Of a stretch of DNA of 64,000 nucleotides, positions 5,877 through 47,548 are shown piece by piece (the stretch's first letter is position 1; each line of letters starts with the position of its first letter). The position numbers were made by a program, and so were the translations under genes. The notes beneath the pieces were generated by a model, which saw only the letters and a program-made list of their open reading frames with translations, was not told the origin of the DNA and did not search any database. Where the stretch lies: contig JAUIAH010000002.1 in the NCBI GenBank assembly GCA_030425385.1, forward strand, positions 186,001-250,000. Reading direction: 5' to 3'. Source of the stretch: Verrucomicrobiia bacterium (lineage in GTDB: Bacteria; Verrucomicrobiota; Verrucomicrobiia; Verrucomicrobiales; DEV007).

Positions 5877-5901
5877 CAGACACTACTGAAGCGTGCGAGC
5901 A

Positions 5902-6528: not shown

Positions 6529-6629
6529 GAAAGAATCGTGGTTAAAAGGGAAACTGGGTGTGAAAGGGGGGCGTATAGAAACACATTTCTGCCAAGCGGC
6601 AAGTCGAATGCGTGTGAAGAACTAGCGGG

Positions 6630-6705
6630 TGGTGGAGGTAAGCGGATTCGAACCGCTGACCTTCTCATTGCGAACGAGACGCTCTACCACCTGAGCTATA
6701 CCCCC
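6630..6705 (-). tRNA. tRNA-Ala (anticodon CGC)
   Basis: Read on the minus strand, bases 6705 to 6633 fold into a full cloverleaf. The acceptor arm is GGGGGTA paired with TACCTCC and includes the G3:U70 wobble that identifies alanine tRNA. The D arm is GCTC/GAGC, and the anticodon stem TCTCG/TGAGA closes a TTCGCAA loop, giving anticodon CGC for the codon GCG. The T arm is AGCGG-TTCGAAT-CCGCT. The discriminator is A, and the CCA end is encoded at 6632-6630. The gene lies 38 bases after the tsf stop and about 100 bases before rplY. Confidence 0.95.
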
Positions 6706-6718
6706 ACTTTCGAGAAAG

Positions 6719-6736
6719 CTCCTGCGTTTACAGGAG
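6719..6736 (-). terminator. Short hairpin between tsf and tRNA-Ala
   Basis: On the minus strand CTCCTG and CAGGAG pair around a TAAACG loop starting 8 bases after the tsf stop codon, followed by CTTTCTCG. It could be a weak terminator or an RNA-processing signal ahead of the tRNA. The T tract is short, so termination is uncertain. Confidence 0.35.
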
Positions 6737-6743
6737 TAAAGGT

Positions 6744-7331
6744 TTACTCACCAAGCGCGTAGCGCGTGAAACGACGAATCACAATGTTCTCGCCGAGTTC
6801 CGCAATCTTGGCCTTGAGCAGATCACCCACAGTTTGGTCAGGATCCTTGATGAACCCCTGCTCCAAGAGACAGATCGTGCTGTAGAACTTGTCCAACTTA
6901 CCCTCGAGAATCTTCTCGATGACGTTAGCAGGCTTGTCCTTCATCTGCTCCGCGTAAATCTCCTTCTCTTTATTGACCACGTCCTCAGGCACTTGGTCTC
7001 GACTCACACAGGTTGGCTGAGCGGCCGCGATGTGCAGCGTGATATCCTTCACGAAATCACGAAAAGACGCATTCTTAGCCACAAAGTCCGTTTCACAATT
7101 CACCTCGATGAGCACGCCGGCCCGATCATGGTGAATGTAGGAGGCAATGACGCCTTCCTTCGCCACACGCGAGGCTTTCTTGTCCGCAGTGGCAAGGCTC
7201 TTCTTACGCAAGATGGTCTCTGCTTTCTCCAAATCGCCATCGGCTTCCTTCAGTGCTTCTTTGCACTTCATCATGCCGACGTTGGTCTTCTCACGGAGCT
7301 GCGCGACGAGTTTGGCGGTGATTTCTGCCAT
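6744..7331 (-). CDS. tsf: Elongation factor Ts
   Basis: A 195-residue nucleotide-exchange factor for EF-Tu. The N-terminal UBA-like segment (LVAQLREKTNVGMMKCKEAL) and the core signature (VLIEVNCETDFVAKN) are intact, and the C-terminal part (DQTVGDLLKAKIAELGENI, then RRFTRYALGE) matches the short EF-Ts form that lacks the coiled-coil extension of the E. coli protein. It follows rpsB by about 75 bases, the usual rpsB-tsf order. Confidence 0.97.
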   Translation of the reverse strand: MAEITAKLVAQLREKTNVGMMKCKEALKEADGDLEKAETILRKKSLATADKKASRVAKEGVIASYIHHDRAGVLIEVNCETDFVAKNASFRDFVKDITLHIAAAQPTCVSRDQVPEDVVNKEKEIYAEQMKDKPANVIEKILEGKLDKFYSTICLLEQGFIKDPDQTVGDLLKAKIAELGENIVIRRFTRYALGE

Positions 7332-7405
7332 AGTAAGGGTGTATCAGTTGGTAGGTGCTAGTTGGTGAACTGGTTAGAACACGGCGTGCGAGGACTCCGC
7401 AGCCG

Positions 7406-8143
7406 CTAGGAGGCGTCCACAAGCTCCATCTCCGCCCGCTTGGCTGGAGTGAACTTGCCGCCGCCTTGAGTCGCCGCGATCACAGGATCGATCAGCTTCT
7501 GCAAGATCACGCGAATCGAACGGAGAGCGTCATCATTGGCAGCGATGGGATACGCAATCGGATCTGGATCCGCATTGCTATCGACCAAGGCCACAACAGG
7601 GATGCCCAGGCGAGTGGCCTCATTCACGGCGATGTCCTCACGGAAAGAATCCACGACAACCACCGCATCAGGCAATTTCTCCATGTTGCGGATCCCCTCG
7701 AGGTTCCGAAGAAGTTTCGCCCGCTCACGATCGAGGGCAGCCAACTCCTTCTTACTCATAGCCTTAAACTCGGGCGACTTCTCAATCTTCTCCAAATATT
7801 CGAGACGCTTCACGCTCTGGCGGATCGTGGACATATTCGTCAACGTGCCACCGAGCCAGCGGTGATTGATGTAATACTGATTGCAGGCCGTGGCCGCTTC
7901 GCGCACGGACTCTTGGGCCTGGCGCTTGCACCCCACGAAGAGGATCTTCTTCCCCGCCGCTGCGAGCTCAGCCAGAAACGATGCCGCTTCCTCGATCTGC
8001 TTCACCGTCTCATAGAGATTGATGATGTAGATATTGTTCCGCTCCTCCAGGAGGTAAGGCTTCATCTTGGGATTCCACTTCCGGCGCTGATGGCCGTAGT
8101 GAACGCCAGCTTCAACAAGTTCTTCGAGAAGTTCGGTAGACAT
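7406..8143 (-). CDS. rpsB: 30S ribosomal protein S2
   Basis: The ATG at 8143 gives 245 residues starting MSTELLEELVEAGVHYGHQ, the normal S2 beginning; a longer frame to 8200 only adds non-homologous residues. The S2 signatures are present (HQRRKWNPKMKPYLLEERNN, FVGCKRQAQESV, NHRWLGGTLTN, and IPVVALVDSNADPDPIAYPI). The protein is needed to place S1 on the 30S subunit. It is first in the leftward rpsB-tsf cluster and has a roughly 90-base leader after the predicted promoter, long enough for autoregulation, although no known S2-binding fold was identified. Confidence 0.97.
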   Translation of the reverse strand: MSTELLEELVEAGVHYGHQRRKWNPKMKPYLLEERNNIYIINLYETVKQIEEAASFLAELAAAGKKILFVGCKRQAQESVREAATACNQYYINHRWLGGTLTNMSTIRQSVKRLEYLEKIEKSPEFKAMSKKELAALDRERAKLLRNLEGIRNMEKLPDAVVVVDSFREDIAVNEATRLGIPVVALVDSNADPDPIAYPIAANDDALRSIRVILQKLIDPVIAATQGGGKFTPAKRAEMELVDAS

Positions 8144-8239
8144 ATAAGAAGGTTCCGTGCAGGGGCTGCATGCTGAGAGGCAACGATCAATCGAAGTCAA
8201 GAAGAATCCGCGAAATTGCCCCGGTTCAGCGAGCGGCCA

Positions 8240-8267
8240 AGTATAGTCACACCTCTAGGACTGGCAA
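8240..8267 (-). promoter_or_regulatory. Sigma-70-type promoter for rpsB-tsf
   Basis: On the minus strand a -35 element TTGCCA (8267-8262) and a -10 element TATACT (8245-8240) are separated by 16 bases. Transcription would start near 8233, about 90 bases before the rpsB ATG. This is the best-formed promoter I could find in the window. Confidence 0.55.
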
Positions 8268-8286
8268 GTGGCAATCTGAACCCATT

Positions 8287-9915
8287 TCAACCACGCAAAC
8301 ATTCCTTGAGAGCCACCGCCATGGCATCGCCCACCTCCTCCTCGTCACCAACCACGATATCCCCACCGCCAGAGACAAAGTCCTCCGTATGCAGTTGATA
8401 CCGGGATCGCACGATCAGCTGGGCCTGCGGCGCCAGCAGTCGCACCTGGGCCATCATCAGAAGTCCCGATTCATGATGGGGCACCGTGATGACCACCACC
8501 TTCGCATGGCTCACCTTCGCGTGCTCCAGCACCTCGCTCTGAGTGGCGTCTCCCACCAAGCCCCGGAATCCACAGTCGTGGGCCCGCGTCACCCCCTGTT
8601 GGTTCAAATCAATCACCATGACACGCGTCTCTCCCTCCAGCAGCGGCTGAATCAATCGCTGTGCTGCTGGACCGAAACCGACAACCACCACTTCCGGCAC
8701 GAATGCCGCCGTCTCTGAAAGCGATTTCTCCGGAACCTTACCTAGCGTTGTCGCCAACCAATCGGCAAGCGCACCCGCCCGCGGCACCAAGATAGCACTG
8801 ACCAAGAAGGACATGATCGTCACCGAGACGATGAGTGCGTAAAGATCTGTTGAAACCACCCCAGCTGTCCGGCCGATAGCACCTAGCACAAAGGCAAATT
8901 CACCAATCTGTGCCAAGCTGAGCCCGGTCGCCAAAGACACGCGCAGCGAGTGGCCCAGCAACTGAAAGATGGCCCAGACAATGAGCAATTTCACCACCGT
9001 GATGGCCGCCGTCACCAAGAGCACCCAATGAGCATGTGTGAGGATCCACATGGGATCAGCCACCATACCCGCGGCTCCAAAGAAGAGCGTCAGGAGGACG
9101 ACACGAAACGACGACACATCCGCGCGAATCTGGGTAGCAAAGGCCGAACTCCCTAACAACATGCCGGCAACAAACGCTCCCAGCGCCGGTGAAATGCCCG
9201 CGGCGTGCGCCACCCAAGCGGCCCCCAAACCCGTCGTCACCGCCAAGATCACCGTCAGTTCACGATTCCGATGCAATGTCAGCGTTCCGAGCGCCAGCAC
9301 CGCCACTTTGTTAAGCACCCACATGCCCGCGACCAGTCCCACCGCGACGAGGAGCAGCTTGCCCACTTCCATCGCCACGGTCATGCCCTCCCCTTCTCCT
9401 CCAAGGACCGTCATTAACAAAGCCAGTGGCACCACCGCCATGTCTTGAGTCAAGAGCACTCCCAAACTGTTTCGACCATGCGGCAGATCCATTTCCGACC
9501 GCTCCATGAGAATCCGCAACACAACCGCCGTACTACTCAGAGCGATCATCGCTCCAAAGGCCAAGGCTTGGCGAATGGGCAAGCCCCAAAGGGAGGCGAC
9601 CACCGCTCCCACAAGCATCGTGAGGATGACCTGAATTACCCCCCCGAGCAGTGGTTTGGCTCCCAGTTTGCGCAGGCGTTTCACCGAGAATTCCAGCCCC
9701 AAGCTGAAGAGCAAGAGCGCCACCCCCAACTCCGCGATCGCCTCGATCTCGTGCTCCGATGCCACCATTCCCACGCTCCCGGGGCCTCCAAGGAGCATCC
9801 CGGCGAAGAGATACCCAATCAATGGACTTTGGCCCCAACGAGAGAAGAGCCCACCCAGCAGGAGAGCACCTGCCAGAAGGACGACGATGTCTCGAAGTAG
9901 TAGCCAGAGATCCAT
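8287..9915 (-). CDS. KefB-type cation:proton antiporter with TrkA-N domain
   Basis: A 542-residue monovalent cation:proton antiporter-2 protein. Residues 1-385 are a membrane domain of about 12 segments with family features (PLIGYLFAGMLLGG, LGVALLLFSLGLEFS, and SSTAVVLRILMERSE). From about residue 410 there is a Rossmann nucleotide-binding TrkA-N domain (VVVVGFGPAAQRLI, VMVIDLNQ, GLVGDATQSEVLEHA). Such proteins exchange K+ or Na+ for protons and are gated through the cytoplasmic domain by NAD(H) or glutathione adducts. The protein ends shortly after TrkA-N, without the longer C-terminal region of E. coli KefB. It is monocistronic by spacing, about 80 bases downstream of recF on the same strand. 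The ion cannot be assigned. Confidence 0.9.
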   Translation of the reverse strand: MDLWLLLRDIVVLLAGALLLGGLFSRWGQSPLIGYLFAGMLLGGPGSVGMVASEHEIEAIAELGVALLLFSLGLEFSVKRLRKLGAKPLLGGVIQVILTMLVGAVVASLWGLPIRQALAFGAMIALSSTAVVLRILMERSEMDLPHGRNSLGVLLTQDMAVVPLALLMTVLGGEGEGMTVAMEVGKLLLVAVGLVAGMWVLNKVAVLALGTLTLHRNRELTVILAVTTGLGAAWVAHAAGISPALGAFVAGMLLGSSAFATQIRADVSSFRVVLLTLFFGAAGMVADPMWILTHAHWVLLVTAAITVVKLLIVWAIFQLLGHSLRVSLATGLSLAQIGEFAFVLGAIGRTAGVVSTDLYALIVSVTIMSFLVSAILVPRAGALADWLATTLGKVPEKSLSETAAFVPEVVVVGFGPAAQRLIQPLLEGETRVMVIDLNQQGVTRAHDCGFRGLVGDATQSEVLEHAKVSHAKVVVITVPHHESGLLMMAQVRLLAPQAQLIVRSRYQLHTEDFVSGGGDIVVGDEEEVGDAMAVALKECLRG

Positions 9916-34681: not shown

Positions 34682-37600
34682 ATGATCACCCATCTCAAGG
34701 GCGCCGCGCTCATGCTTCTATCTACGGTGTCCTTCCGCGCCCTCGCCGAAGAGCCATCCCAAGACACGCTCCAATCCTTTGGCATCTACGCGGAATCCGC
34801 TCCTCTGGCCGCCGTCGGCAAACGAATCCCGACGACATTGCCTCTCCAACTTTCTCCAGGGGATCGCATCGCCTTCGTGGGCAACACCCTTCTCGATCGC
34901 TCCCAGCACTTCGCCTATTTCGAGAGCTTTCTCGTCCAGGCACATCCGGAGCACGATCTCGTCGTACGAAACTTCTCCTGGTCGGCAGATGAAGTCGATC
35001 TCCAGCCGCGCCCTGACAATTTCGCTACCGTGGGGCAACACCTCACGCGGGAGAAGATTGATGTCATTATCGCCGCCTTTGGATTCAACGAATCCTTTGC
35101 TGGCATCGACGCCATTGAGACCTTTCAAGATCGCCTTCGCACCTGGATTGAAAGCACGTCTTCACGAGCCTTCAACGGAACAGAGGGGCCCAAGATTGTC
35201 TTACTATCACCCATCGCAAACGAGAACCTACCGGGAGTACCGGCAGCCGATCGCAATAATGCCAGACTCAAACAGTACACGGAGGCCATGCGAGCGGTGG
35301 CTGAAGAAGCCAAAGTCGCCTTCGTTGATCTCTTTGCGCTGACCCATCCGCTCTTCTCCCAAGCTTCCGAAAAACCCTGGACCATCAATGGCATTCATCT
35401 GACAGCGGAAGGCTACGCCAAAGTCGATTCATTGCTGTTCCAAGCGATCTTCAATCAATCTGCTCCCTCCCTTCGAGAGGGCGTGCGCGAGGCCATGGCA
35501 GACAAGAATCGCCAATACTTTCGTCGGTATCGGCCGCTCAACACCTTCTACTACACAGGTGGACGCAATCAGAAATACGGCTACCTCGACTTCCTCCCAG
35601 CCATGCGAAACTTTGAAATCATGGCCGCCAATCGCGAGGCTCGCGCTTGGGCGCTCGCGCGGGGAGATCGACCAACTGCCAGAATTCTCGAAGATTCAAA
35701 TGTACCACCCTTAGAAGAGACAACGCAATCGCGTGGCGCCAATGAATGGCTCTCACCCGCTGATGAACAGAAGGCCTTCCGCGTAGACCCACGATTTGAG
35801 GTCAATCTCTTCGCCTCCGAGGAGGAATTCCCCGATCTGGCCTGCCCCATTCAAATGCGCTGGGATGCCAAGGGCCGTCTGTGGGTTGCCTGTTCCACCA
35901 CTTACCCTCACGTTTATCCAGGGCAAGAGCCCAACGATAAGATTGTCATCCTAGAAGATACCGATTGGGATGGACGCGCCGACACCTGCAAGGTTTGGGC
36001 GGATGATCTGCACATCCCGCTCTCATTTGTGCTTACCAAGGACGGTGTGCTCGTTTCGGAAGAGCCGCACCTTTCCCTCATTCGCGATACCGATGGAGAT
36101 GATCGTGCCGACACGCGCGTTCATGTCCTCACAGGATTTGGGACGGAAGATTCGCATCATGCGTTGCACGACTTTGTATGGACCCCCGATGGCGATTTGT
36201 TGTTTCGCGAATCCATCTTTCATAACAGCCAGGTCGAAACAGCCTACGGACCCGTGCGCGCCAAGAATTCGGCCTGGTTTCAATGGACTCCAGCCACCCA
36301 AAGACTCCGCTCGTTTGGAAACTACCCGAACACCAATCCGTGGGGCGTCACTTTTGACGATTGGGGCTACCACGTCGCCAGCCACCCTGTCTTCGCAGCC
36401 GCCTTTCATGCCACCAATCCCCCCTATCCCACACAGCATCCCGCAGCCAAAGGCTTGCCTGCATACTCGGGCGTTTGCGGACATGAATTCGTCGACTTCG
36501 AATCATGGCCTGCCTCGCTACAAGGTGGCTTTATTAAAGTACGCTACAAACCGACGAACCGCGTGGAGATTCATCGCTGGGTCGAGCACGACGATCACTT
36601 CGCCGAGGAATATCAGGGCGACCTCCTATTCTCGGAAAACTTATCGTTCATCCCAGTCGATCTTCGCTATGGCCCCCGTGGAGCCATGTATGTCTGTGAC
36701 TGGTACAATCCCGTCAAAGGCCATGCACAATATTCCCTTCGAGACCCCCGCCGCGACCGAAAGTCCGGACGCATCTGGCGTCTGACACCCAAAGGGACGG
36801 AACTGGCATCACCTATCATTATTGCCAACCAATCGATTGATGAACTCCTCGATCTCCTCAAGCGTCGGGAATACCGCTACCGCTATTGGTCGAAACGCGA
36901 GCTACGCACGCGCGATGCTGCGAAGGTGATGGCAGCGCTTGATCAGTGGGCCCATTCCCTGCAGACTGAGGATCCCCGGCATCGGCACCATCAATTGGAA
37001 GCTTTGTGGATGTATCGATCTCTCGGCCGAGTACAATCAGAACTCCTTGCAGAATTATTAAGATGCCCACAACACCATGCCCGCGCCGCCGCCACTCGTA
37101 TGCTACGCTATTGGCACAAATCGCTCGATGACCAGGGCTTGGATCATTTGAAAGAAAGCGCATTGGATGGGCACGCGCTCGTTCGCATGGAAGCAGCCAT
37201 GGCGGCGAGCTATATGGGTTCCAAGGACTCGCTGCACGCAATTCTCCCCATCTTGGATCAAACGATGGGTGATCACCTCAACTACGCTGTCCGTTGTGCT
37301 CTCGGTTCCCAAGCACTTCTGCCTCACTGGCAGAATGACGAACGCTTGGCCCCAAGGATCCAGGAACTTCTCAATGCCGGCAAACGGCCAGATCCCTTGA
37401 AAGTAGCAAGCCGGCCACGGAACGCCACCGATGCCGGATTTGATAGCCAGAAAGATCTCAAAACCCTCAAGATTGGCTGCATACCAGAACGCATGCTCTA
37501 CACCCGAGAGCGCTTTCGCGTGGCACCCAATCAGCCAATCAAACTCGTATTCCATAATCCCGACGCCACGGAACACAATCTCGTGATCGTTCAACCGGGC

Positions 37601-37831
37601 GCTTTAGAAGAAATCGGTCTGGCTGGAAATGAAATGGCCAAAGATCCTGAAGCGGCCAAGAAAGGGTTCATCCCCGACTCGCCTAAGATCCTTCACGCTA
37701 GCAAGCTACTCAAGCAAGGCCAAGCGCAAGCACTCCGATTCCGCGCGCCAAGCGAGCCAGGTGTCTATCCCTATCTGTGCACCTTTCCGGGGCACTGGAT
37801 CGTGATGAAAGGCGAGATGGTGGTGCGCTGA
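34682..37831 (+). CDS. Secreted multidomain protein: SGNH-like, propeller, HEAT and cupredoxin
   Basis: A 1049-residue protein with a signal peptide (residues 1-22). About 45-270 is an SGNH/GDSL-like domain (IAFVGNTLLDRSQHF, AFGFNESFAG, NGIHLTAEGY), but the nucleophile Ser of the GDS motif is replaced, the site reading GNT. About 375-720 is a PVC-type dehydrogenase propeller (MRWDAKGRLWVACS, DTDWDGRADTC, DTDGDDRADT with calcium-like loops). A helical HEAT-like region follows. The last 110 residues are a cupredoxin with ligands in EHNLVI and YLCTFPGHWIVMKG, that is His, Cys, His and Met. It probably oxidises sugars or alcohols and passes electrons to copper. There is no CXXCH heme site. Neighbours do not reveal the substrate. 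Confidence 0.82.
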   Translation: MITHLKGAALMLLSTVSFRALAEEPSQDTLQSFGIYAESAPLAAVGKRIPTTLPLQLSPGDRIAFVGNTLLDRSQHFAYFESFLVQAHPEHDLVVRNFSWSADEVDLQPRPDNFATVGQHLTREKIDVIIAAFGFNESFAGIDAIETFQDRLRTWIESTSSRAFNGTEGPKIVLLSPIANENLPGVPAADRNNARLKQYTEAMRAVAEEAKVAFVDLFALTHPLFSQASEKPWTINGIHLTAEGYAKVDSLLFQAIFNQSAPSLREGVREAMADKNRQYFRRYRPLNTFYYTGGRNQKYGYLDFLPAMRNFEIMAANREARAWALARGDRPTARILEDSNVPPLEETTQSRGANEWLSPADEQKAFRVDPRFEVNLFASEEEFPDLACPIQMRWDAKGRLWVACSTTYPHVYPGQEPNDKIVILEDTDWDGRADTCKVWADDLHIPLSFVLTKDGVLVSEEPHLSLIRDTDGDDRADTRVHVLTGFGTEDSHHALHDFVWTPDGDLLFRESIFHNSQVETAYGPVRAKNSAWFQWTPATQRLRSFGNYPNTNPWGVTFDDWGYHVASHPVFAAAFHATNPPYPTQHPAAKGLPAYSGVCGHEFVDFESWPASLQGGFIKVRYKPTNRVEIHRWVEHDDHFAEEYQGDLLFSENLSFIPVDLRYGPRGAMYVCDWYNPVKGHAQYSLRDPRRDRKSGRIWRLTPKGTELASPIIIANQSIDELLDLLKRREYRYRYWSKRELRTRDAAKVMAALDQWAHSLQTEDPRHRHHQLEALWMYRSLGRVQSELLAELLRCPQHHARAAATRMLRYWHKSLDDQGLDHLKESALDGHALVRMEAAMAASYMGSKDSLHAILPILDQTMGDHLNYAVRCALGSQALLPHWQNDERLAPRIQELLNAGKRPDPLKVASRPRNATDAGFDSQKDLKTLKIGCIPERMLYTRERFRVAPNQPIKLVFHNPDATEHNLVIVQPGALEEIGLAGNEMAKDPEAAKKGFIPDSPKILHASKLLKQGQAQALRFRAPSEPGVYPYLCTFPGHWIVMKGEMVVR

Positions 37832-37833
37832 GA

Positions 37834-40344
37834 TCAGCTTGCCAAGGGAACATCCTCCTCCTGTCCCAATACTTTCCCCACCATCTCGTAAAGGCTTGTG
37901 AGCGCATAAGGCTTGTGGAGGAAAGCAATGTCTTTCTCCCGAGCCGCGTCCACCAAGGCCCGGTGGTCCGTGTAGCCGCTGCTGAGCAAGCCTCTGATGT
38001 GAGGATGAGTCGTCAACAGCTTGTCTAACACTTCCATTCCCGTTCCATCAGGCAGCATGGCATCGCTAAAGATCATATCGAAGCGACCGTCGTGCTCATC
38101 GAACACACGCAGGGCTTCTTTCGCCGTCATCGCCGTGATCACTTGATACCCTTTACTCGTCAGCGCGGTCTTTACGAAGTTGATAACACTCGGCTCATCC
38201 TCCACCAGCAATATCCGCTCTCCACGGGAGCCATTGCGTTTGCCCACCTCCTCTAGCGGCACGGCCTTCCGACTAGCTGCCACTACTTTCGCGGGCAGGT
38301 AGATCGTGAACTGCGTGCCTTCTCCTAATGCACTATCGAGGTCAATCCACCCTTCGTGTTGCTCAATGATCCCGACCACCACGGACAAGCCAAGCCCCGT
38401 CCCATCAAGTCCTTTGGTCGTGAAGAATGGGTCAAACACGCGGTCGATGATCTCTGGATCCATGCCTGGCCCCGTGTCTTTCACAATAAATCGTATAGCT
38501 TGTAAGGATTCTCCATTGCTTGGCCTCGCCGCCATCTCCAATGAGGTGGACATCTCAATCGTGCCTCCCCTTGACATCGCATCGCGAGCGTTCACACAAA
38601 GATTCATGATCACTTGATCCATCTGGCCCCTATCTGCCTCGATCATGGCTTCGCCATCCATAAGATCGATCTCCAAGCGAATATCTTCTCCCAGGATGCG
38701 ATTGAGCAAGACGCGCTTGTCCTCTACCAGTGCATTCAGGTCCATAGGAGCCTTTTCCAAGATTTGCTTTCGCGAAAAGGCTAGCAATTGGTGGGTGAGG
38801 TCCGCCGCACTTTCAGCGGCTTTCCGGATCTCTTGAAGCTCCTGCTGATCGGCCGCTAGCAGATCATCACGCTCCAAAAGCATATCACTATAGCCGATGA
38901 TGGGCAAAAGCATGTTATTGAAGTCATGGGCAATGCCACCTGTTAGCTTACCAATCGCTTCCAACTTCGATGCTTGATTCAATTCCTCCATCAATCGCTG
39001 TTTCTCCCTGCCGGTCTCAAGACGCTGCAAACCACTCCGCACGATATGGACAAACATTTCGAAGAGCCTAACTTGATGATCTGTCCAGGCATACGGCTGG
39101 CGATTCGCCATCATGAGCACTCCACGCGATTGATCCCGCTTATCCAATGGAAAGACGGCCATCGACGCAATCCCAGCCTCAGAGAGGGCATCCCGGAAAT
39201 TGATAGGATCCCCACCCCGTTCATCAAGGTCACTGATCGCTGCCCACCCGTGCCTATCAATCTGATCGCCACTCCAGGATGACTCCAGGATGGCATCGAT
39301 CGGCACTGACAAAAGCTCATCCTCCTTTTGCCAGGCAAAGGTCTCATTCAGGCTTCCGCCTTCTTGAAGGTAGACTCCAGAGAAATCGATCTTGAGAAAG
39401 GTTCCCATTCGCCCGAGGGCCGCTCGAATCCCCTGTGCCAATTCATTATCACTGAGATCAAGCAATTCCAGGCTGATATCGTTGATGACTGCTTCGAGAT
39501 GAATCCGCCATCGCAGATCCTTCGTGCGCTGGGAAACCAGTTCTTCCAGATGGTCCTTGTATTCCTCCTTACGACGTTCCCCATCTCGTTGAACACTGAT
39601 GTCTCGAAAGATAAGGACAGCTCCCACCAGCTTTCCCTCACTATTGCGAATCGGCGATCCCGAATCATCAATAGGAATCTCAGATCCATCGGGGCGAATA
39701 AGTACCGTCTTCTCAGCCAGGCCGGTCACTTCTCCCGATTCCAAGGCGACCAGGAGAGGATTCTCCACCACCTCACGGGACTCTTCATGAACAATCTGAA
39801 AGACATCCACGAGCGGTTTCCCCACGGCGTTGTCGGAAGTCCACTGGGTAAGATCTTCCGCAACCCCATTCATGAACACAATATTGCCGGTGGGATCTGC
39901 GGCAATCACGCCATCACCGATCGAATGCAGGGTCGTGAAGAACCATTCCGCACTGGCCTGCAATTGCTGGTCCATCTGTGCTTTATGGATCGCAATCTCA
40001 ACTGCTGAGACCAACGCGGCCTGCTCAAAAGGCTTGATGAGATAGCCCATAGGCTCCGTCTCCTTGGCCCGTTCGACCACACCCTGCTGGGAGTAAGCCG
40101 TAAGAAAGATAAACGGAATCCCATACTGCTTGATCTCGTGAGCCACTCCGATGCCATCCATGTCTCCACGCAGCACGATATCAAGAAGCGCCAAGTCAGG
40201 CTGGTGTTCCTTGGCGAGCGCAATTGCCTCTTCCCCCCTTTTGGCAATGCCGCAGACGTGATATCCAGCGTCTTCAAGAGACATCTTAATATCCTCAGCA
40301 ACAATGCGCTCATCTTCGACGACTAAGACGGTGGACTGACTCAT
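37834..40344 (-). CDS. Hybrid receiver-PAS-GAF-histidine kinase-receiver
   Basis: An 836-residue cytoplasmic signalling protein with no membrane segment. Order: receiver (1-120, Asp55 in LALLDIVLRGD), PAS (130-255), coiled coil, GAF-like (280-440), HisKA (His473 in GGIAHDFNNMLLP), HATPase (about 540-690; NLCVNARDAM, DTGPGMDP, GTGLGLSVV), and a C-terminal receiver (about 705-830; MIFSDAMLPDGTG). It starts 2 bases after the membrane kinase gene, so that kinase probably phosphorylates the N-terminal receiver, giving a four-step relay. No DNA-binding domain is present, so the final output must be elsewhere or by protein contact. It is the last gene of a five-gene operon. Confidence 0.92.
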   Translation of the reverse strand: MSQSTVLVVEDERIVAEDIKMSLEDAGYHVCGIAKRGEEAIALAKEHQPDLALLDIVLRGDMDGIGVAHEIKQYGIPFIFLTAYSQQGVVERAKETEPMGYLIKPFEQAALVSAVEIAIHKAQMDQQLQASAEWFFTTLHSIGDGVIAADPTGNIVFMNGVAEDLTQWTSDNAVGKPLVDVFQIVHEESREVVENPLLVALESGEVTGLAEKTVLIRPDGSEIPIDDSGSPIRNSEGKLVGAVLIFRDISVQRDGERRKEEYKDHLEELVSQRTKDLRWRIHLEAVINDISLELLDLSDNELAQGIRAALGRMGTFLKIDFSGVYLQEGGSLNETFAWQKEDELLSVPIDAILESSWSGDQIDRHGWAAISDLDERGGDPINFRDALSEAGIASMAVFPLDKRDQSRGVLMMANRQPYAWTDHQVRLFEMFVHIVRSGLQRLETGREKQRLMEELNQASKLEAIGKLTGGIAHDFNNMLLPIIGYSDMLLERDDLLAADQQELQEIRKAAESAADLTHQLLAFSRKQILEKAPMDLNALVEDKRVLLNRILGEDIRLEIDLMDGEAMIEADRGQMDQVIMNLCVNARDAMSRGGTIEMSTSLEMAARPSNGESLQAIRFIVKDTGPGMDPEIIDRVFDPFFTTKGLDGTGLGLSVVVGIIEQHEGWIDLDSALGEGTQFTIYLPAKVVAASRKAVPLEEVGKRNGSRGERILLVEDEPSVINFVKTALTSKGYQVITAMTAKEALRVFDEHDGRFDMIFSDAMLPDGTGMEVLDKLLTTHPHIRGLLSSGYTDHRALVDAAREKDIAFLHKPYALTSLYEMVGKVLGQEEDVPLAS

Positions 40345-40346
40345 GA

Positions 40347-41762
40347 CTAAACTCGCTCCTCGTATTCGCTTTCGTAGAATTCTATGTGGACACTGGTACC
40401 CACACCGTTTCGGTAATCAATTTCGCCATCAAGCTGATCGACGAGCATATCGACAAGCTTACTCCCGAGGGACCCCTCGCGCTCAGGCTTCTTCCCCTGA
40501 AGGCCAATCCCATCATCTGCGACTATGAGGCTATAGCGGCCATCCGACACCGGCCGCACCTTGATGGAGATCTTGCCGTCGCGATGGTCCGGAAAAGCGT
40601 ATTTGAGCGCGTTGCTCACCAGCTCATTGACGATGAGACCGCACGGCATGGCCGTGTCCAATCCCAGGAGAATCTCAGGAGCATCGACCTCAAGACTCAC
40701 ATTAGAACCTTCTGAGCGATGCATCCGAACGAGCTGCCCAGCCAGCGTTTCGACATAGCCATGGAAATCAATCTCCGAGATATTCTGGGATTGATAGAGT
40801 TTCTCATGAATCAATCCCATGGATCGAATGCGCGATTCACTCTCTTTCAGGAAAACCTTGATACGCTCGCCCTCGACCTCACGTGCTTGCATCCTGAGAA
40901 GACTGCTCAAGATCTGCATATTGTTCTTCACTCGGTGATGAATCTCTTTGAGAAGGACCTCCTTCTCTCTGAGGCGAGCCTCTTGCTGAAGCGATTCCTG
41001 GAGTTGCTCGTGCGAACGCTTCAGATCGGTTGTCATCTGATTCATCGCATGGCCGAGGGCCCCTAATTCATCATGATCCTTGATCTCTAGCTGATGATCG
41101 AGATCACCCGAAGCCACGCGTTGAGCGAAGTCCTTGATGCGCGAGATGGGATGCGTGAGATTCCGAGCGAAGAGGAAAGAGGTGACAATGCCAATGGCGA
41201 AGGCAGGGATGGACAACCGCAGAATGATGCCATAGACGCTTTGAACGCTTTTGTAATAGTCATCAAGGGTGATACCGACGTGAATCCAGCCCCATTTGAT
41301 GCCTGAATAGGCAAACGCATGGCTATAATGCATGATCTCGTCACCATCTTCAGCGAGAGGGTTAGGGCGAATTAGTGCCGTGCTCTCGTGCACGGCCGGA
41401 TTACTCCAATCCGTATCTAGGGTATCCAATCGCCACCCGTCGTGCGTGTGGACCAGTGAGAACCCATCATCCATCTTAGTAATCACCACGTAGTCCACAT
41501 GGCCGCCCATCTCGATCATGCGAAGGCATTGGGAAATCACTGATTCCCAATCCTCGGCAACAATTGCCTTGGCAGTGACGCGATCGAGCGACGATGCCAG
41601 AAGATTCCCGCGCTCCTTGAGCTGCCCAAAGAGCATGCGCTTCTCATGATGAACCATGGTCCACGCGAAGACACCCAACGTAAGCGCCGCCACCCCGACA
41701 GAGAGCGCGGTAGCTTTGACGAAGATGCTAATGCCTTTCTGTCTGTTAGAATCAGAACTCAT
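40347..41762 (-). CDS. Membrane histidine kinase (HisKA_2 type)
   Basis: A 471-residue sensor kinase. One membrane segment near residues 12-35, a periplasmic domain of about 140 residues, and a second segment near 176-198 are followed by HAMP (to about 250) and a HisKA_2 dimerisation region with EIHHRVKNNMQILSSLLRMQ (phospho-His 275 or 276), then a HATPase domain (VNELVSNALKYAF, ADDGIGLQ, GSLGSKLVDMLVDQL). Its start overlaps the stop of the second PhnD-like gene (TGATG). This suggests that the binding proteins pass their signal to its periplasmic domain. Confidence 0.92.
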   Translation of the reverse strand: MSSDSNRQKGISIFVKATALSVGVAALTLGVFAWTMVHHEKRMLFGQLKERGNLLASSLDRVTAKAIVAEDWESVISQCLRMIEMGGHVDYVVITKMDDGFSLVHTHDGWRLDTLDTDWSNPAVHESTALIRPNPLAEDGDEIMHYSHAFAYSGIKWGWIHVGITLDDYYKSVQSVYGIILRLSIPAFAIGIVTSFLFARNLTHPISRIKDFAQRVASGDLDHQLEIKDHDELGALGHAMNQMTTDLKRSHEQLQESLQQEARLREKEVLLKEIHHRVKNNMQILSSLLRMQAREVEGERIKVFLKESESRIRSMGLIHEKLYQSQNISEIDFHGYVETLAGQLVRMHRSEGSNVSLEVDAPEILLGLDTAMPCGLIVNELVSNALKYAFPDHRDGKISIKVRPVSDGRYSLIVADDGIGLQGKKPEREGSLGSKLVDMLVDQLDGEIDYRNGVGTSVHIEFYESEYEERV

Positions 41763-42700
41763 CAGGGCTCTTGAGAATCGATCGGGATCTCGGCCGAAAG
41801 GGGTTGTGCGTGCTGCGAACGCTCTTCTCTTCTCGCCAAAAGACTCTTGAGGGAATCAAGCTGCGCCGGGTCGAATGGATAGAGCCGCTTGACTCGAAAG
41901 AGCGTCAGCAACTGTTCGCCTTTCGGTTTCTTGTTCAGTTTGAGTCCCTCGCGCAGAACGAGATCGGGCTCCTTCTCCTTGTAGTCCGCTCGAAAGCACA
42001 AGATGCTGTTGATGTAAGGCTCAGATTGATAGAGAACCTTGAGTTTCTTACCAATCTGTGGATTGAGTTCAACCACGGTCTCATAAGCGCTCTTGGTGAC
42101 TATGCACGCTTGCGCTTTGCCAAAGAATAACGGCAAGACTGCTTGCGAGACGTTGTTGGTTTCCTGAACTTCCGTAAAGGTCATCTCCGTGAACGGGATC
42201 TGCTCTTCGGCAAACTTCTCCTGCAGCCACATCAAGGGGAGATCGCCAGACCCTCGCTGAATGAGGAGCTTGGCATCCGAGAAACCACTGAGCGAATCAA
42301 TATGGTGAGGCACCAGGAAGAGATACTCATCGAAGATTGAATTCTCTGTATCCTGACCGATGAGCACAGGGCGCATAGGATATTCCTCATTCAAACGCAA
42401 ATACTCGTATCCGAAGATAAGAAAGAAATCGAATTCGTTAGCGACAAGCTTCTGCAGAAACTCATCGTTGTCTTCGATGACTTCCGTGTCGTACCCGATA
42501 CCGTGCGACTCCACAATCTCTTTTAATAGATGCTTCGCGGCTACTTGAGCATCCCGCGCATCCACATTATTGAGTGCTGAAAGAGGGAAACCGGTCCGCA
42601 TCGAGTAGAGTTTACCGGTCTGAGCAACAAGTGAAAGAGAACCTAGCTGTAGCAACGCCAGGCTCACCCAAAGGATATGGCGAGGAGATAGCAAACTCAT
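41762..42700 (-). CDS. PhnD-like periplasmic binding protein 2
   Basis: A 312-residue protein from the ATG at 42700, which overlaps the previous stop by four bases (ATGA). It has a signal peptide (ending near SLVAQ) and the two-lobe fold of the phosphonate-binding PhnD group (NEFDFFLIFGYEYLRLNEEY, PLFFGKAQACIVTKSAYETV). It is a clear paralog of the gene before it: both share a FFGK...C(I)..TK segment, ELNPQI, and a C-terminal LLTLFRVKRLYPFDPAQLD / ILTLSKVERLQPFEEGQLD stretch. No importer permease or ATPase gene is nearby, so it probably serves sensing. Confidence 0.85.
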   Translation of the reverse strand: MSLLSPRHILWVSLALLQLGSLSLVAQTGKLYSMRTGFPLSALNNVDARDAQVAAKHLLKEIVESHGIGYDTEVIEDNDEFLQKLVANEFDFFLIFGYEYLRLNEEYPMRPVLIGQDTENSIFDEYLFLVPHHIDSLSGFSDAKLLIQRGSGDLPLMWLQEKFAEEQIPFTEMTFTEVQETNNVSQAVLPLFFGKAQACIVTKSAYETVVELNPQIGKKLKVLYQSEPYINSILCFRADYKEKEPDLVLREGLKLNKKPKGEQLLTLFRVKRLYPFDPAQLDSLKSLLARREERSQHAQPLSAEIPIDSQEP

Positions 42701-43611
42701 TCGAGTGGCGCAGTTGTATATTCCGATTTCGAGTGACGTTCCTGATGAAAGTTCCAAAGCACTTTCATCGTATCCAATTGCCCTTCTTCAAAGGGTTGCA
42801 ATCGTTCGACTTTACTCAATGTAAGAATCTGTTTTCCCGCAGGATGCTCATGTGTCGAAGAGGCGCGCCTGATGATGTCCAAACGTTCTTCAGCACTGCG
42901 ATTTCCCGAGGCGCACAAACAGAAGAGGAGCAACGGGTCCGACTCAGCAACCACTTGAAGAGACTTCCTGATTTGGGGATTGAGTTCCGCCATGGCTTCA
43001 AAGGACCTTTTAGTCGCGATACAAAGATCCTGTTTCCCAAAGAAGACGGACAGAATTGCGTTCTGGCTTTGTTTGACGGTGGAGACTTGCTTGAAGTATT
43101 CTTCAGAACTTGGGAGACCATTCTTGTCGAGCAAATGATCCATCCAGATTTGGCCGTAAGGTGTGGTCCATTGATGGGTGATGGTAACATCTTTCGATGC
43201 GTAATCTGCGATCGAAGCGTGTTGGCTTCCTTTCTTGCCAAGAACGATCAACGTTTCAAAGCAACTCTCGTCGATGATCGCCGTAAGAGCGGGCTTTAGG
43301 GGAGCGCGTTCACGAAAGCGAAAGTATTGAAACGTCTCTAGAGGAAAGAAGTCGATCTCATCCTTCTGGACTGCGTTGATGAACGAGCTATCCGAAGCAA
43401 AGATGGTAGCCTCACCAAAGTTCTCGTTCACCAGTTCCTCAAAGAGCACGTTCAAGGTGACCCCCAGGCTCCCCGCATCACCCGAGGCGACGGCTGACTC
43501 TAAAACACCTACGCGAATAGGGCTAGCCACCTCTGCAAGAGCGTGATTGCCGGGCGCCAGAATATAGGTGATCCCAATTGCCAGGGTTGTGAGCAGAGAT
43601 GGACTATTCAT
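42697..43611 (-). CDS. PhnD-like periplasmic binding protein 1
   Basis: A 304-residue protein with a signal peptide (residues 1-26, ending NHALA). The binding-protein fold is shown by IRVGVLESAVAS, KDEIDFFPLETFQYFRF and the hinge segment LSVFFGKQDLCIATKRSFE. Its start overlaps the TolC stop by four bases (ATGA) and its stop overlaps the next start. It and the following gene arose by tandem duplication but have diverged widely outside the C-terminal third. The ligand is unknown; phosphonate, phosphate-like and other small anions or osmolytes are all possible for this family. Confidence 0.85.
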   Translation of the reverse strand: MNSPSLLTTLAIGITYILAPGNHALAEVASPIRVGVLESAVASGDAGSLGVTLNVLFEELVNENFGEATIFASDSSFINAVQKDEIDFFPLETFQYFRFRERAPLKPALTAIIDESCFETLIVLGKKGSQHASIADYASKDVTITHQWTTPYGQIWMDHLLDKNGLPSSEEYFKQVSTVKQSQNAILSVFFGKQDLCIATKRSFEAMAELNPQIRKSLQVVAESDPLLLFCLCASGNRSAEERLDIIRRASSTHEHPAGKQILTLSKVERLQPFEEGQLDTMKVLWNFHQERHSKSEYTTAPLE

Positions 43612-45212
43612 TTTACGGGGTCCTTGCCAATATCCCGATTGAGATCGGCAATAGTGGTGAGTTGATCGAAGTGGAGTTTATGGCGCCTGGCTTTGACCAT
43701 GGCTTCCATCATCTGAGATTCGAAGACGTCACGCGCCTCGATGAGATCATTGCGATACGCGCGCTCGACCAAGTCGCGATTCTCCGTCGCCGTTTGAACA
43801 GCTTCTACGCTGATGGCCTCCTGCTGTTCCATTTGCTTGAGATTGAGATAATGACTCTTGATCTTCATGGCGAGGCCATGACGTAGCAGCTCCCGCTGGG
43901 CGCGGATTTGTCCGGCATGAGCCTTTGCCTCTTTCAGCTTTTCACGGTGGCGGAAGCCTGTGAAGAGAGGCAATTCCATCCCAATCCCAACACTCCAGTT
44001 TTGGAGATTGGATTTAGAAGCGGCTCCCGTATTGAGGCCGTTCTCTAGATAATGTGCGGAGCCGAGGAAGGCGACCCTAGGAAGATGCGCCGATCGCTCT
44101 TCACGTATCTTCGCATCGGCCGCTTGAATGCCGATCTGCACCTTATTCCATTGGGGATTGGATTGAAGGGCTTCCCCAATCGCGGTGGCAAGGTCGATGT
44201 CATGCGCTTGGTAATTGAGTGCTTTCTTTGTCGGGGTGACGGATGATTGCCAGGAAAGTCCCATGCTGTGCACCAAGGCAGAAGCGGCCAGCTCTTTATT
44301 TTTCCGAAGGCGCTCCACTAGCATGCGGATGCTATCAACCACGACCTTGTTGCGAAGATAATCCGTCTTCTTCACCTGCATGGATCCGCCTTTATAAAGC
44401 TGCTCCGTGAGGGTCAGCGTGATCCGCATGCGCTCGAGCGTTTCCTCTCCCAGACTGAGTAATTGACTGGCAAGAACCGTTCCGTTGTACATCCGCGTGA
44501 CCTCATAAATGATCTCGTGATCCGTGCGGCGAGCATCCTGGCGGGCGGCGGCAATCCCTTGCTTGGCCTGGGCACGCATGGCTTCGCGCATGCCCCCATC
44601 ATAAAGGAGCCACTGGACCTCTAGGAGGGCCCCATAAGTGAAGCGATCTGCAAGCTGGATCTCTTGTTCGGGAACGGTGAGTTCTTGCCCAGGGACGGCA
44701 AATTGCTGACTTGGGATGGTAATGAGTTGCCCGGGGATGTTGACGCTCTGAGGAGGCACGGGAACCTGGAGGTCCGCCGGAGGGAAATTGGGCCCGAAAG
44801 CGCCACTCGGAATGGTAAGCGAACTGGCTGGCGTTTGGATGGTGCCACCTGGAAATGGGATACTCATCTCGGGCAGGCCAAGAGCCATGTCCGGGAGGGT
44901 GAAGGTCGATTCCGGGTAGATGAAATTGGGTTCGTCTCCCCGCAGATCGGCGAGGCCTCGGAGATTCACCTGAGGCCAGTAGGCAGAAAGGGCCTGCCGG
45001 TGCTGGGCTTTGGCAATGGCCACGGAGAATCGAGAGGCGGGCCGCTGCTGGTTATGCGCCAGAGCAGTCTCAATGCACTGCGCCAAACTGAAGCTTCCTT
45101 CCATGACAGGCGCCCGCCCGTCTTCCCGCAGGAGACGCGTGAGCTCTTCGTCCCCATACAACGCGCTCATGGCGAGGTAGAAACAGAACCAAATTCGGAG
45201 GGAGGAGTGCAT
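43608..45212 (-). CDS. TolC family outer-membrane protein with a heptapeptide-repeat insert
   Basis: A 534-residue TolC-like protein with a signal peptide (ending near LYG). Both helical halves are recognisable: FSLAQCIETALAHNQQ at residue 41, ALSAYWPQVNLRGLADLRG at 74, FTYGALLEVQWLLYDGG at 191, then LPRVAFLGSAHYLENGLN and GIGMELPLFTGFRHREKLKE. Between the two strands of the first half (about residues 95-188) there is an insert rich in Pro, Ile, Thr and Gln. Its end is a strict 7-residue repeat with Pro at 153, 160, 167, 174, 181 and Gln two residues after each. By homology this is an extracellular loop. It opens the five-gene operon. No HlyD-type or inner-membrane exporter partner is adjacent. 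Confidence 0.9.
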   Translation of the reverse strand: MHSSLRIWFCFYLAMSALYGDEELTRLLREDGRAPVMEGSFSLAQCIETALAHNQQRPASRFSVAIAKAQHRQALSAYWPQVNLRGLADLRGDEPNFIYPESTFTLPDMALGLPEMSIPFPGGTIQTPASSLTIPSGAFGPNFPPADLQVPVPPQSVNIPGQLITIPSQQFAVPGQELTVPEQEIQLADRFTYGALLEVQWLLYDGGMREAMRAQAKQGIAAARQDARRTDHEIIYEVTRMYNGTVLASQLLSLGEETLERMRITLTLTEQLYKGGSMQVKKTDYLRNKVVVDSIRMLVERLRKNKELAASALVHSMGLSWQSSVTPTKKALNYQAHDIDLATAIGEALQSNPQWNKVQIGIQAADAKIREERSAHLPRVAFLGSAHYLENGLNTGAASKSNLQNWSVGIGMELPLFTGFRHREKLKEAKAHAGQIRAQRELLRHGLAMKIKSHYLNLKQMEQQEAISVEAVQTATENRDLVERAYRNDLIEARDVFESQMMEAMVKARRHKLHFDQLTTIADLNRDIGKDPVK

Positions 45213-45346: not shown

Positions 45347-45985
45347 ATGACACGTCTCTCCCTGTCGCTACGGCGTACTTTCCTGGCCGGTTTGGCCTTT
45401 CTGATTCCCTTGGCCGCCACGGGGTGGTTGCTCGTTTTCATCTATCGGCTGGTCGAACGGATGAGTTGGCCCCTCATGAACTTCCTGCTGCCAGATGGGA
45501 TGGAGCCCCCGCGGATGCTGGTGAGTCTCTGCGGCATCCTCTTGGTGATCCTGCTCATTCTTGGATTCGGATTGGTCGCGCGCAATGGCATCGGCAAGCG
45601 CTTGTTGGAGGCGGTGGACCAGTTCTTCCTTGGAATCCCTGTCGTGGCTTTTGTCTATCGTGGTTTGAAGCAAGGGATTCAGTCCGCGCAGGCTTTGGGC
45701 GGGGCCCAGCGCTTTCAACGGGTGGTCTACGTGGAGTATCCCGCACCAGGCTGCCGCTTGATTGGATTCGTGACGGGACGCTATCATGATGAGCAAATTC
45801 AGAAGCCGGTCACGAGTGTGTTTGTGCCCACGTCTCCAAACCCGATGACTGGATTTGTGATCGTAGTGGAGGATACGAAGGTCTTGGATTCCACGCTTTC
45901 TCTTGAGGAGGCCTCGAAGCTCGTCTTCTCTGCAGGCCTGATCACTCCGCATCCGCCTCCATCAGCCATTGCATCCCATGACTAA
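45347..45985 (+). CDS. DUF502 family membrane protein
   Basis: A 212-residue inner-membrane protein with two N-terminal membrane segments (about 13-33 and 60-78), and then a soluble domain. The family pattern is complete: FLAGLAFLIPLAATGWLL, GFGLVARNGIGKRLL, FLGIPVVAFVYRGLKQ, and VFVPTSPNPMTGFVIVVE. DUF502 proteins are widespread and of unknown function. Its last 8 bases overlap the start of the solute-binding protein gene. Confidence 0.9.
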   Translation: MTRLSLSLRRTFLAGLAFLIPLAATGWLLVFIYRLVERMSWPLMNFLLPDGMEPPRMLVSLCGILLVILLILGFGLVARNGIGKRLLEAVDQFFLGIPVVAFVYRGLKQGIQSAQALGGAQRFQRVVYVEYPAPGCRLIGFVTGRYHDEQIQKPVTSVFVPTSPNPMTGFVIVVEDTKVLDSTLSLEEASKLVFSAGLITPHPPPSAIASHD

Positions 45986-46766
45986 ACTGCTAACCGCTCT
46001 CTTTCTAGCCACTCTGCTCGCACTGACTAGCAGTTGCTCCAAACGCGATCCCAATACTCTCCGCATTGGAATGGAGTTGAGTTATCCCCCCTTTGAGATG
46101 ACCAATGCCCAGAACGAACCCGATGGGATCAGCGTGCGCCTTGCCGAGGCATTGGGTGAACACCTGGGACGACCGATCGAAATCGTGGATGTGGGATGGG
46201 ACGGAATCATCGCGGCGCTGCGAACCGGCAAGATTGATCTCATCTTGTCCTCCATGACCAAGACGGAAGAGCGTGAGAAGTCGATCGCCTTTTCCGATCC
46301 CTATGTGACGAACAGTCTCTGTACCTTGGTGGGGAAGGAGTCGCCGATCCAAGATCCTGAGGATCTGAAGAAACCAGGCGTGCGGATCGCTGTGAAGGGT
46401 GAGACCACCGGAGAAGCCTATGTGAATGAGTATCTGCCGGATGCTGAGGTGATTCGGTTAGACCAGGCGAGCGACTGCGCCTTACAAGTCATGCAGGGCA
46501 AGGCCGATGCCTTCATCTATGACCAGATCTCTATTTATAAGAGTTGGCAGGCGCATCCCGAGGCGACCCGGGCGATCTTGAAACCCATTCGCGCAGAGAG
46601 TTGGGCAATCGGTCTGCGTCATGGTGAGGACGCTCTTCGGGAAGAGGTGAATGCGTTCTTGGCCGCCTTTCGCGCACAGAATGGCTTCGAGGCGTTGACC
46701 GATCGCTACATGGCAGCCGAGAAGAAGGCCTTCGCTGAGCAAGGCATTCCCTTCATCTTTGAGTGA
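45978..46766 (+). CDS. Amino-acid ABC transporter substrate-binding lipoprotein
   Basis: A 262-residue family-3 solute-binding protein. The ATG at 45978 overlaps the DUF502 stop and opens a lipoprotein signal (LLALTSSC). The domain is typical: LRIGMELSYPPFEMTNAQN, EIVDVGWDGIIAALRTGKID, LILSSMTKTEEREKSIAFSD, then VRIAVKGETTGEAY. It should bind a polar amino acid in the periplasm and deliver it to the permease encoded 8 bases downstream. Exact ligand unknown. Confidence 0.93.
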   Translation: MTKLLTALFLATLLALTSSCSKRDPNTLRIGMELSYPPFEMTNAQNEPDGISVRLAEALGEHLGRPIEIVDVGWDGIIAALRTGKIDLILSSMTKTEEREKSIAFSDPYVTNSLCTLVGKESPIQDPEDLKKPGVRIAVKGETTGEAYVNEYLPDAEVIRLDQASDCALQVMQGKADAFIYDQISIYKSWQAHPEATRAILKPIRAESWAIGLRHGEDALREEVNAFLAAFRAQNGFEALTDRYMAAEKKAFAEQGIPFIFE

Positions 46767-46774
46767 ACCGTTAG

Positions 46775-47548
46775 ATGACGTCTCTCGGCACGGCGCCCCC
46801 CACGGCTAGGCAATGGTTTCTCGCCTGGGCGACAGTGTTTCTCCTCGTTGGCATCGCAAGCTACGGATTCTTTTCCGGGCTTTCATACCAGTTCAACTGG
46901 AGCACGATCTTCGAATACAAGCACCGCCATCGCCTTGTGCAAGGCTGGTGGGTGACGCTGCTGGTATCCGTCTGCGCCCTCGTCCTGAGCACAATTCTTG
47001 GAGTCATCGTGATGTTCGGCCAGCGGAGCGCGGTCTTGGTGGTCCGTTGCCTGAGCCGATTCTACGTCGAGCTCATTCGCGGCACGCCTCTCATCGTCCA
47101 GATTCTCTTTGGCTATTATGTGATCTTCGAGCGCTTGCGATTGGACGATCCTTTCTGGGCGGGAGTGCTGATCATTTCCGCTTTCTCCGCTGCCTATTTA
47201 AGTGAGATCTTTCGGGCGGGAATTGAGGCTGTTCCCAAATCTCAGATCGACTCCGCCCGAGCCATCGGTCTAAGTCCCGTTCAGACTTATCTCCATGTGA
47301 TCTTTCCTCAAGCCATCCGCCAAGTGTTGCCCGCGTACGCAGGTCAATCCGCCTCGTTGATCAAGGACACGTCTCTCCTCTTCGTCATTTCCGTGAGTGA
47401 ATTCACCTTCAACGCGCGCAAGGTCAATTCGGACACTTACAGCCCCTTCGAAACGTTCCTGCCACTGGCGCTGGGTTACCTGATCCTCACGCTACCCATC
47501 TCGTGGATGGCACGACGGTTGGAGGCGAAGATGGCCTTCGAAAAGTAG
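46775..47548 (+). CDS. Amino-acid ABC transporter permease
   Basis: A 257-residue HisM/GlnP-type permease with about five or six membrane segments. The ATPase-coupling EAA loop reads EIFRAGIEAVPKSQIDSARA followed by IGLSP, and ELIRGTPLIVQILFGYYVIF is typical. It pairs with the binding protein just upstream. The ATP-binding subunit normally follows, but here a single-domain response regulator comes next on the same strand after 200 bases, so the ATPase must be encoded elsewhere. Confidence 0.93.
   Translation: MTSLGTAPPTARQWFLAWATVFLLVGIASYGFFSGLSYQFNWSTIFEYKHRHRLVQGWWVTLLVSVCALVLSTILGVIVMFGQRSAVLVVRCLSRFYVELIRGTPLIVQILFGYYVIFERLRLDDPFWAGVLIISAFSAAYLSEIFRAGIEAVPKSQIDSARAIGLSPVQTYLHVIFPQAIRQVLPAYAGQSASLIKDTSLLFVISVSEFTFNARKVNSDTYSPFETFLPLALGYLILTLPISWMARRLEAKMAFEK

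Follow-up and report, generated by a model that had tools for sequence, protein, structure and literature searches.

A TolC-PhnD-sensor kinase operon conserved in five phyla as a candidate trans-envelope signalling system

This study concerns a five-gene operon in a 64,000-nucleotide stretch of DNA (the whole of which is called the window here) from a Verrucomicrobiia bacterium of the DEV007 lineage (assembly GCA_030425385.1, contig JAUIAH010000002.1, positions 186,001 to 250,000). The operon encodes a TolC-family outer-membrane channel, two PhnD-like periplasmic binding proteins (PhnD1 and PhnD2), a membrane sensor kinase and a hybrid kinase (Table 1), and it is probably a single trans-envelope signalling system in which TolC would be the port or presenter, the PhnD-like proteins the binders, the sCache kinase the sensor and the hybrid the relay. 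The unit that is conserved consists of TolC, one to six PhnD-like proteins and an sCache-HAMP sensor; the kinase type and the hybrid vary. It appears to represent a mechanism, not described before, by which the cell senses its surroundings across all layers of the envelope.

The conservation of this unit was followed with a profile made from ten TolCs, which was scanned against 84,980 species genomes with TolC alone as the query and which worked where a scan of genome contigs with the single PhnD1 sequence gave no match (a comparison of PhnD1 with plasmids gave none either). The profile returned 60 loci, of which 59 were counted as usable and five (L034, L035, L036, L088 and L090) were already part of the profile. 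By lineage there were 20 loci in Thermodesulfobacteriota, 16 in Acidobacteriota, 14 in Verrucomicrobiota, 5 in Myxococcota and 1 in Kiritimatiellota, with 1 more from a 'Clostridia' bin, possibly through contamination, and 3 without a phylum. When the downstream genes were classed with profiles for the other operon parts, PhnD-like genes were found after TolC in 55 of the 56 loci with downstream sequence, the sole exception being L052. All 45 PhnD runs with a readable end lead into the same sCache-HAMP sensor module, and a run holds 1-5 copies by script count and 6 in L085. Neighbour clustering found no recurring pump, adaptor or importer in about 60 loci from five phyla, the absence of adaptors being judged from this clustering and the operon annotation and not from an adaptor profile. 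The initial annotation had set conservation of gene order as a test beforehand, and the order is kept in relatives as well as in distant phyla; its other possibility, an importer lost only here, was rejected because no relative has an importer at the locus. The 8 Mb genome has only three Phosphonate-bd genes, two of them in the operon, and since the set also recurs across phyla the grouping of these genes is not due to chance.

The outputs attached to the sensor differ between lineages. In Verrucomicrobiota the sensor is followed by HisKA_2 and a REC-hybrid, Acidobacteriota and Thermodesulfobacteriota have GAF-HisKA kinases partnered by REC-kinase or REC-GGDEF-EAL proteins, and in Desulfovibrio relatives the sensor is fused to HAMP-PAS-GGDEF-EAL and adjoins TolC and PhnD (L087 3968-6721; L089 11296-13968). 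Geobacteraceae carry small Hpt proteins just upstream of TolC (L066 2259-2651; L080 8290-8745), and neighbour clustering placed these in seven loci. That TolC, PhnD and the sensor stay constant while the outputs change suggests that these three form an input unit. In the predicted structure the periplasmic part of the sensor is a single Cache/PDC domain between two transmembrane (TM) helices, followed by HAMP. Structure comparison showed that this model resembles the sensor domains of WalK, CitA and Tlp3, and sCache_3_2 was recognised in 23 of 46 sensor homologues.

The predicted fold of PhnD2 (predicted local distance difference test, pLDDT, 89.9) is best matched by ArrX (Z 23), the sterol carrier BstB, AioX (Z 21) and XAC2383 (5ub3), and a sequence profile search concurs, with ArrX as the top match for PhnD2 (8e-20). 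Three of these four closest folds, ArrX, AioX and XAC2383, are known as signalling partners or are paired with them. Residues W158, F193, P214 and Q263 are invariant across 115 PhnD2 homologues. The S-F-S oxyanion motif of ArrX is not kept, as the aligned PhnD2 positions 151 and 153 vary across the same homologues in a pocket comparison that covered the Ser pair. Invariant residues together with a variable motif suggest, at the level of sequence, a shared interaction surface and diverse ligands; assignment of a ligand from the pocket residues was ruled out because these positions are too variable. In the PhnD tree, duplications confined to single lineages recur, and last-position copies are frequent in one older clade. 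Because copies outside that clade arise repeatedly in this manner, fixed roles for the tandem PhnD copies are unsupported, and such roles were rejected.

TolC proteins are familiar as the exit ducts of efflux and secretion systems. Judged from their sequences, the TolCs of the operon type form a clade of their own, and the clade profile gives the window TolC 787 bits, whereas the best-scoring of the other OEPs examined in this genome, many of them located close to RND pumps, reaches 47 bits. Extracellular loop 1, which an alignment with SilC locates between barrel strands S1 and S2, is 110 amino acids (aa) long in the window TolC and 47-110 aa in the clade, compared with 16-30 aa in most paralogs. 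P-x-Q steps occur among the seven-spaced prolines of this loop, and related but variable repeats are present in nearly all clade members. Both periplasmic tips are altered as well (Table 1), and the repeat-2 tip glycine is found in 16 of 18 paralogs versus 7 of 54 clade members (Fisher p 7e-9, which is only indicative because the sequences are related). The V/T-G-V glycine of this tip is conserved in TolC, OprM and CusC and is needed for adaptor docking, and in MdsC its replacement by alanine abolished pump function (PMC4069162). A further source (PMC3391258) gives the adaptor-side motif. An adaptor-docking surface that has been reshaped and then conserved is what would be expected if another partner bound there, and PhnD may be that partner of the modified tips. 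In one locus (L013 1932-4679) the TolC frame is continuous with an upstream GDSL-lipase bearing a PEP-CTERM-like end, which could reflect either a genuine fusion or a frame that merely stays open in GC-rich DNA.

In the mechanism proposed here, a specialised TolC trimer with a large Pro-rich extracellular loop would admit or present an external signal, which the secreted PhnD-like proteins would bind in the periplasm. These proteins would dock on the sCache domain of the kinase, and perhaps on the altered tips of TolC too. The HisKA_2 kinase would then phosphorylate the hybrid at its N-terminal receiver, and the kinase and C-terminal receiver of the hybrid itself would hand the signal onward. 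In other phyla the same front end would drive REC-GGDEF-EAL or fused GGDEF-EAL proteins, that is, cyclic di-GMP (c-di-GMP). The catalytic motifs are intact in both kinases, as they are in both receivers of the hybrid. The initial annotation had read the operon as an envelope sensing system, and this holds in so far as the PhnD-like proteins serve a kinase and not an importer and the TolC is a dedicated one. The contact between PhnD and kinase, however, is something we infer by analogy with AioX-AioS and XAC2383-XAC2382, and the direction of transport and the use of TolC as a signal port instead of an exporter are likewise proposals. It is possible, although this is put forward tentatively, that the TolC clade has given up export and now serves as the outer-membrane half of a receptor, with its tips binding PhnD in place of adaptors, and that in all five phyla a loop event or a ligand passing through the channel is relayed via PhnD to a Cache kinase or cyclase.

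Several points weigh against this mechanism. Two family members (G066 and G039) have a PhnD-kinase-hybrid arrangement from which TolC is absent, and the source genome itself contains a paralogous pair of HisKA_2 kinase and REC-hybrid without PhnD or TolC (L139, G000:C2:11000-22000, 5334-9350), the two proteins being 46% and 48% identical to the kinase and hybrid of the operon. TolC is thus dispensable in some versions, and the input parts were either added to, or lost from, a free-standing kinase-hybrid pair. In addition, the ArrX S-x-S positions are not conserved and so give no clue to the class of ligand, seven clade members retain the tip glycine, and TolC could rely on an adaptor and a pump borrowed from elsewhere in the genome. 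The paralogous pair also favours an explanation in which the sCache domain senses alone and PhnD and TolC only modulate the background, for example as repressors freed on envelope damage like YfiR/YfiB-YfiN. It is in keeping with this that sCache domains bind ligands directly and that the layering over outer membrane, periplasm and inner membrane is like that of YfiB-YfiR-YfiN. However, the repeated lineage-specific duplication of PhnD and its variable pockets fit ligand recognition by PhnD better than they fit a fixed repressor, and sensing by sCache alone is considered distinctly improbable.

If TolC does borrow its partners, it could be the exit duct for an unlinked pump and adaptor, with PhnD and the kinase sensing the exported compound and adjusting export. 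TolC proteins classically serve several unlinked pumps, this genome has more than ten RND pumps, and efflux is often tuned by signals (BaeS, CpxA). However, no adaptor or pump is linked to the operon in the roughly 60 loci, the docking glycine is lost in most of the clade while both tips carry clade-specific conserved motifs, and most RND pumps of the genome have an OEP gene within a few kb; substrate-sensing efflux of this kind is therefore regarded as unlikely. A role in uptake, with TolC as a diffusion channel, PhnD scavenging a nutrient for a distant permease and the kinase reporting nutrient status, would account for the fold shared with the importer subunits PhnD, PtxB and HtxB, and 1-6 tandem copies with variable pockets do suggest many substrates. 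Yet there is no permease or ATPase in any locus, ArrX, AioX and XAC2383 are closer in fold than transport PhnD, and the invariant neighbour is a sensor instead of a permease, all of which makes an uptake module very unlikely.

The distribution of the candidate signalling system was also followed within the family, where the source genome (8 Mb) is one of 75 genomes. Three genus-mates and most family members are without PhnD proteins, and as the genus-mates lack the system its distribution is patchy. One relative has the identical five genes in identical order (G070:C412), and TolC-PhnD-sensor versions are present in G064, G070:C560 and G120. Sensor and hybrid kinase form a single fused protein in G120, which indicates that both kinases belong to one pathway. 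No clean empty site was found in the genus-mates, since synteny of the two flanks does not hold in those genomes.

Within the window all five open reading frames (ORFs) are co-directional on the minus strand from 45212 down to 37834, and the gene junctions are, in order, ATGA, ATGA, TGATG and a 2-base gap. Signal-peptide-like N-termini are present on TolC, PhnD1 and PhnD2, and neither the ORF list nor Pfam annotation gave any permease, ATPase or membrane-fusion gene within the operon. The initial annotation had given the same picture, namely five overlapping genes with these junctions, signal peptides on both binding proteins, none of the three transport gene types, a kinase with a periplasmic domain and a final receiver-kinase-receiver hybrid without DNA-binding output, and it was borne out by the ORFs, the sequence, Pfam and the predicted model. 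Among the NCBIfam equivalogs listed (the best 25 families for the two kinases), none reached its curated cut-off for any of the five proteins. Anti-phage defence was rejected, as PADLOC gave only weak matches, on the receiver domains of the hybrid. The 3' neighbour (34682-37831, plus strand) is convergent with the operon; its product is a 1049-aa GDSL esterase/DUF7133/HEAT/cupredoxin-like fusion protein, which is about 70-74% identical in three genus-mates and lies in other neighbourhoods there. The 5' neighbours (45347-47548, plus strand) are divergent from the operon and encode DUF502, an amino-acid substrate-binding protein (SBP) and an ATP-binding cassette (ABC) permease. This set is an importer of a different binding-protein family and is kept in a genus-mate without the TolC operon (G053).

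Table 1. Features of the operon, in positions of the window
Feature	Position	Strand	Details
TolC-family outer-membrane channel	43608..45212	-	534 aa, first gene of the operon; Pfam OEP 4e-36
Pro-rich heptad-like insert in TolC extracellular loop 1	44649..44921	-	aa 98-188, prolines mostly 7 apart
TolC repeat-1 periplasmic tip, motif GS..V...DY with two extra residues	44349..44399	-	motif in 54/54 clade members, 0/18 paralogs
TolC repeat-2 periplasmic tip, docking glycine to Asp	43713..43760	-	Glu/Asp in 43/54 clade members
PhnD-like periplasmic binding protein 1 (PhnD1)	42697..43611	-	304 aa; Pfam Phosphonate-bd 2.3e-18
PhnD-like periplasmic binding protein 2 (PhnD2)	41762..42700	-	312 aa, counted from ATG at 42700 (the mechanical ORF opens earlier, at TTG); Pfam Phosphonate-bd 6.3e-17
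PhnD2 family signature LPxFFGxxDAC	42104..42136	-	F193 invariant, F192 95%, 115 homologues
Membrane sensor kinase, TM1-periplasmic domain-TM2-HAMP-HisKA_2-HATPase	40347..41762	-	471 aa; Pfam
Periplasmic sCache (PDC) sensor domain of the kinase	41229..41648	-	model pLDDT 91
Hybrid kinase, REC-PAS-GAF-HisKA-HATPase-REC, without DNA-binding output	37834..40344	-	836 aa; Pfam

If the signalling reading is right, the operon would represent a new use of the TolC channel, by a clade that is linked in five phyla to receptors and a sensor and never, in the loci studied here, to a pump. It would also be a rare signalling route whose components run from the outer membrane through periplasm and inner membrane to the cytoplasm, would connect what happens at the outer membrane of soil and sediment bacteria with control by phosphorelay and c-di-GMP, and would give a candidate function to the common transporter-less proteins annotated as 'phosphonate ABC transporter substrate-binding proteins'. 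Cultured hosts exist among the loci (for example Desulfopila sp. IMCC35006 and Nitratidesulfovibrio liaohensis XJ01), which makes the system open to testing. The statement in the initial annotation that it knew of no described system with this gene content stands for the TolC-linked set, as no description of a TolC-PhnD-kinase operon was found in the open-access literature, most subscription papers being outside this scope. However, it does not extend to the PhnD-to-kinase part, which is not new because signalling from PhnD-family SBPs was already known from AioX-AioS, ArrX and XAC2383-XAC2382.

Among known systems, the outer-membrane, periplasmic and inner-membrane sensor layers of YfiB-YfiR-YfiN (TpbB) feed a HAMP output as in the operon, although its outer-membrane and periplasmic proteins are unrelated. 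The fold of the channel is that of the OEPs of TolC/OprM/CusC tripartite efflux and type I secretion, but unlike TolC, OprM and CusC it has no linked adaptor or pump, has lost the repeat-2 glycine and has a two-residue repeat-1 insertion and a long Pro-rich loop. Unlike the PhnD ABC importer, the operon has no linked permease or ATPase and none recurs in homologous loci. The HisKA_2 kinase is closest to PhyK and the first REC of the hybrid to the PhyR type among the matches listed, all of which are below cut-offs; unlike in PhyK-PhyR there is no sigma-factor mimic, and the receiver is carried by a CckA-like hybrid kinase. In AioX-AioS-AioR, ArxXSR and ArrXSR, which sense arsenic oxyanions, the signal to a membrane kinase comes from a periplasmic protein of the PhnD family, and no ABC importer takes part (PMC5908839). 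The operon likewise has PhnD-fold proteins beside a membrane histidine kinase without an importer, and ArrX is the best fold match. However, AioX-type systems have one binding protein, the DNA-binding regulator AioR and a described regulatory cluster without TolC, and the oxyanion-pocket Ser pair of AioX/ArrX is not conserved in the PhnD family of the operon. XAC2383-XAC2382 is a periplasmic receptor-diguanylate cyclase pair of Xanthomonas citri (J Biol Chem 2018, cited in PMC10380989). It shares the PhnD-fold receptor (5ub3 is a high match), and the Desulfovibrio GGDEF-EAL loci are similar to it. To our knowledge it is described as a pair, with no TolC, no tandem receptors and no kinase phosphorelay. 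AioX-AioS-AioR and XAC2383-XAC2382 are the nearest of the described systems, and by this analogy the operon would add an outer-membrane component to such signalling.

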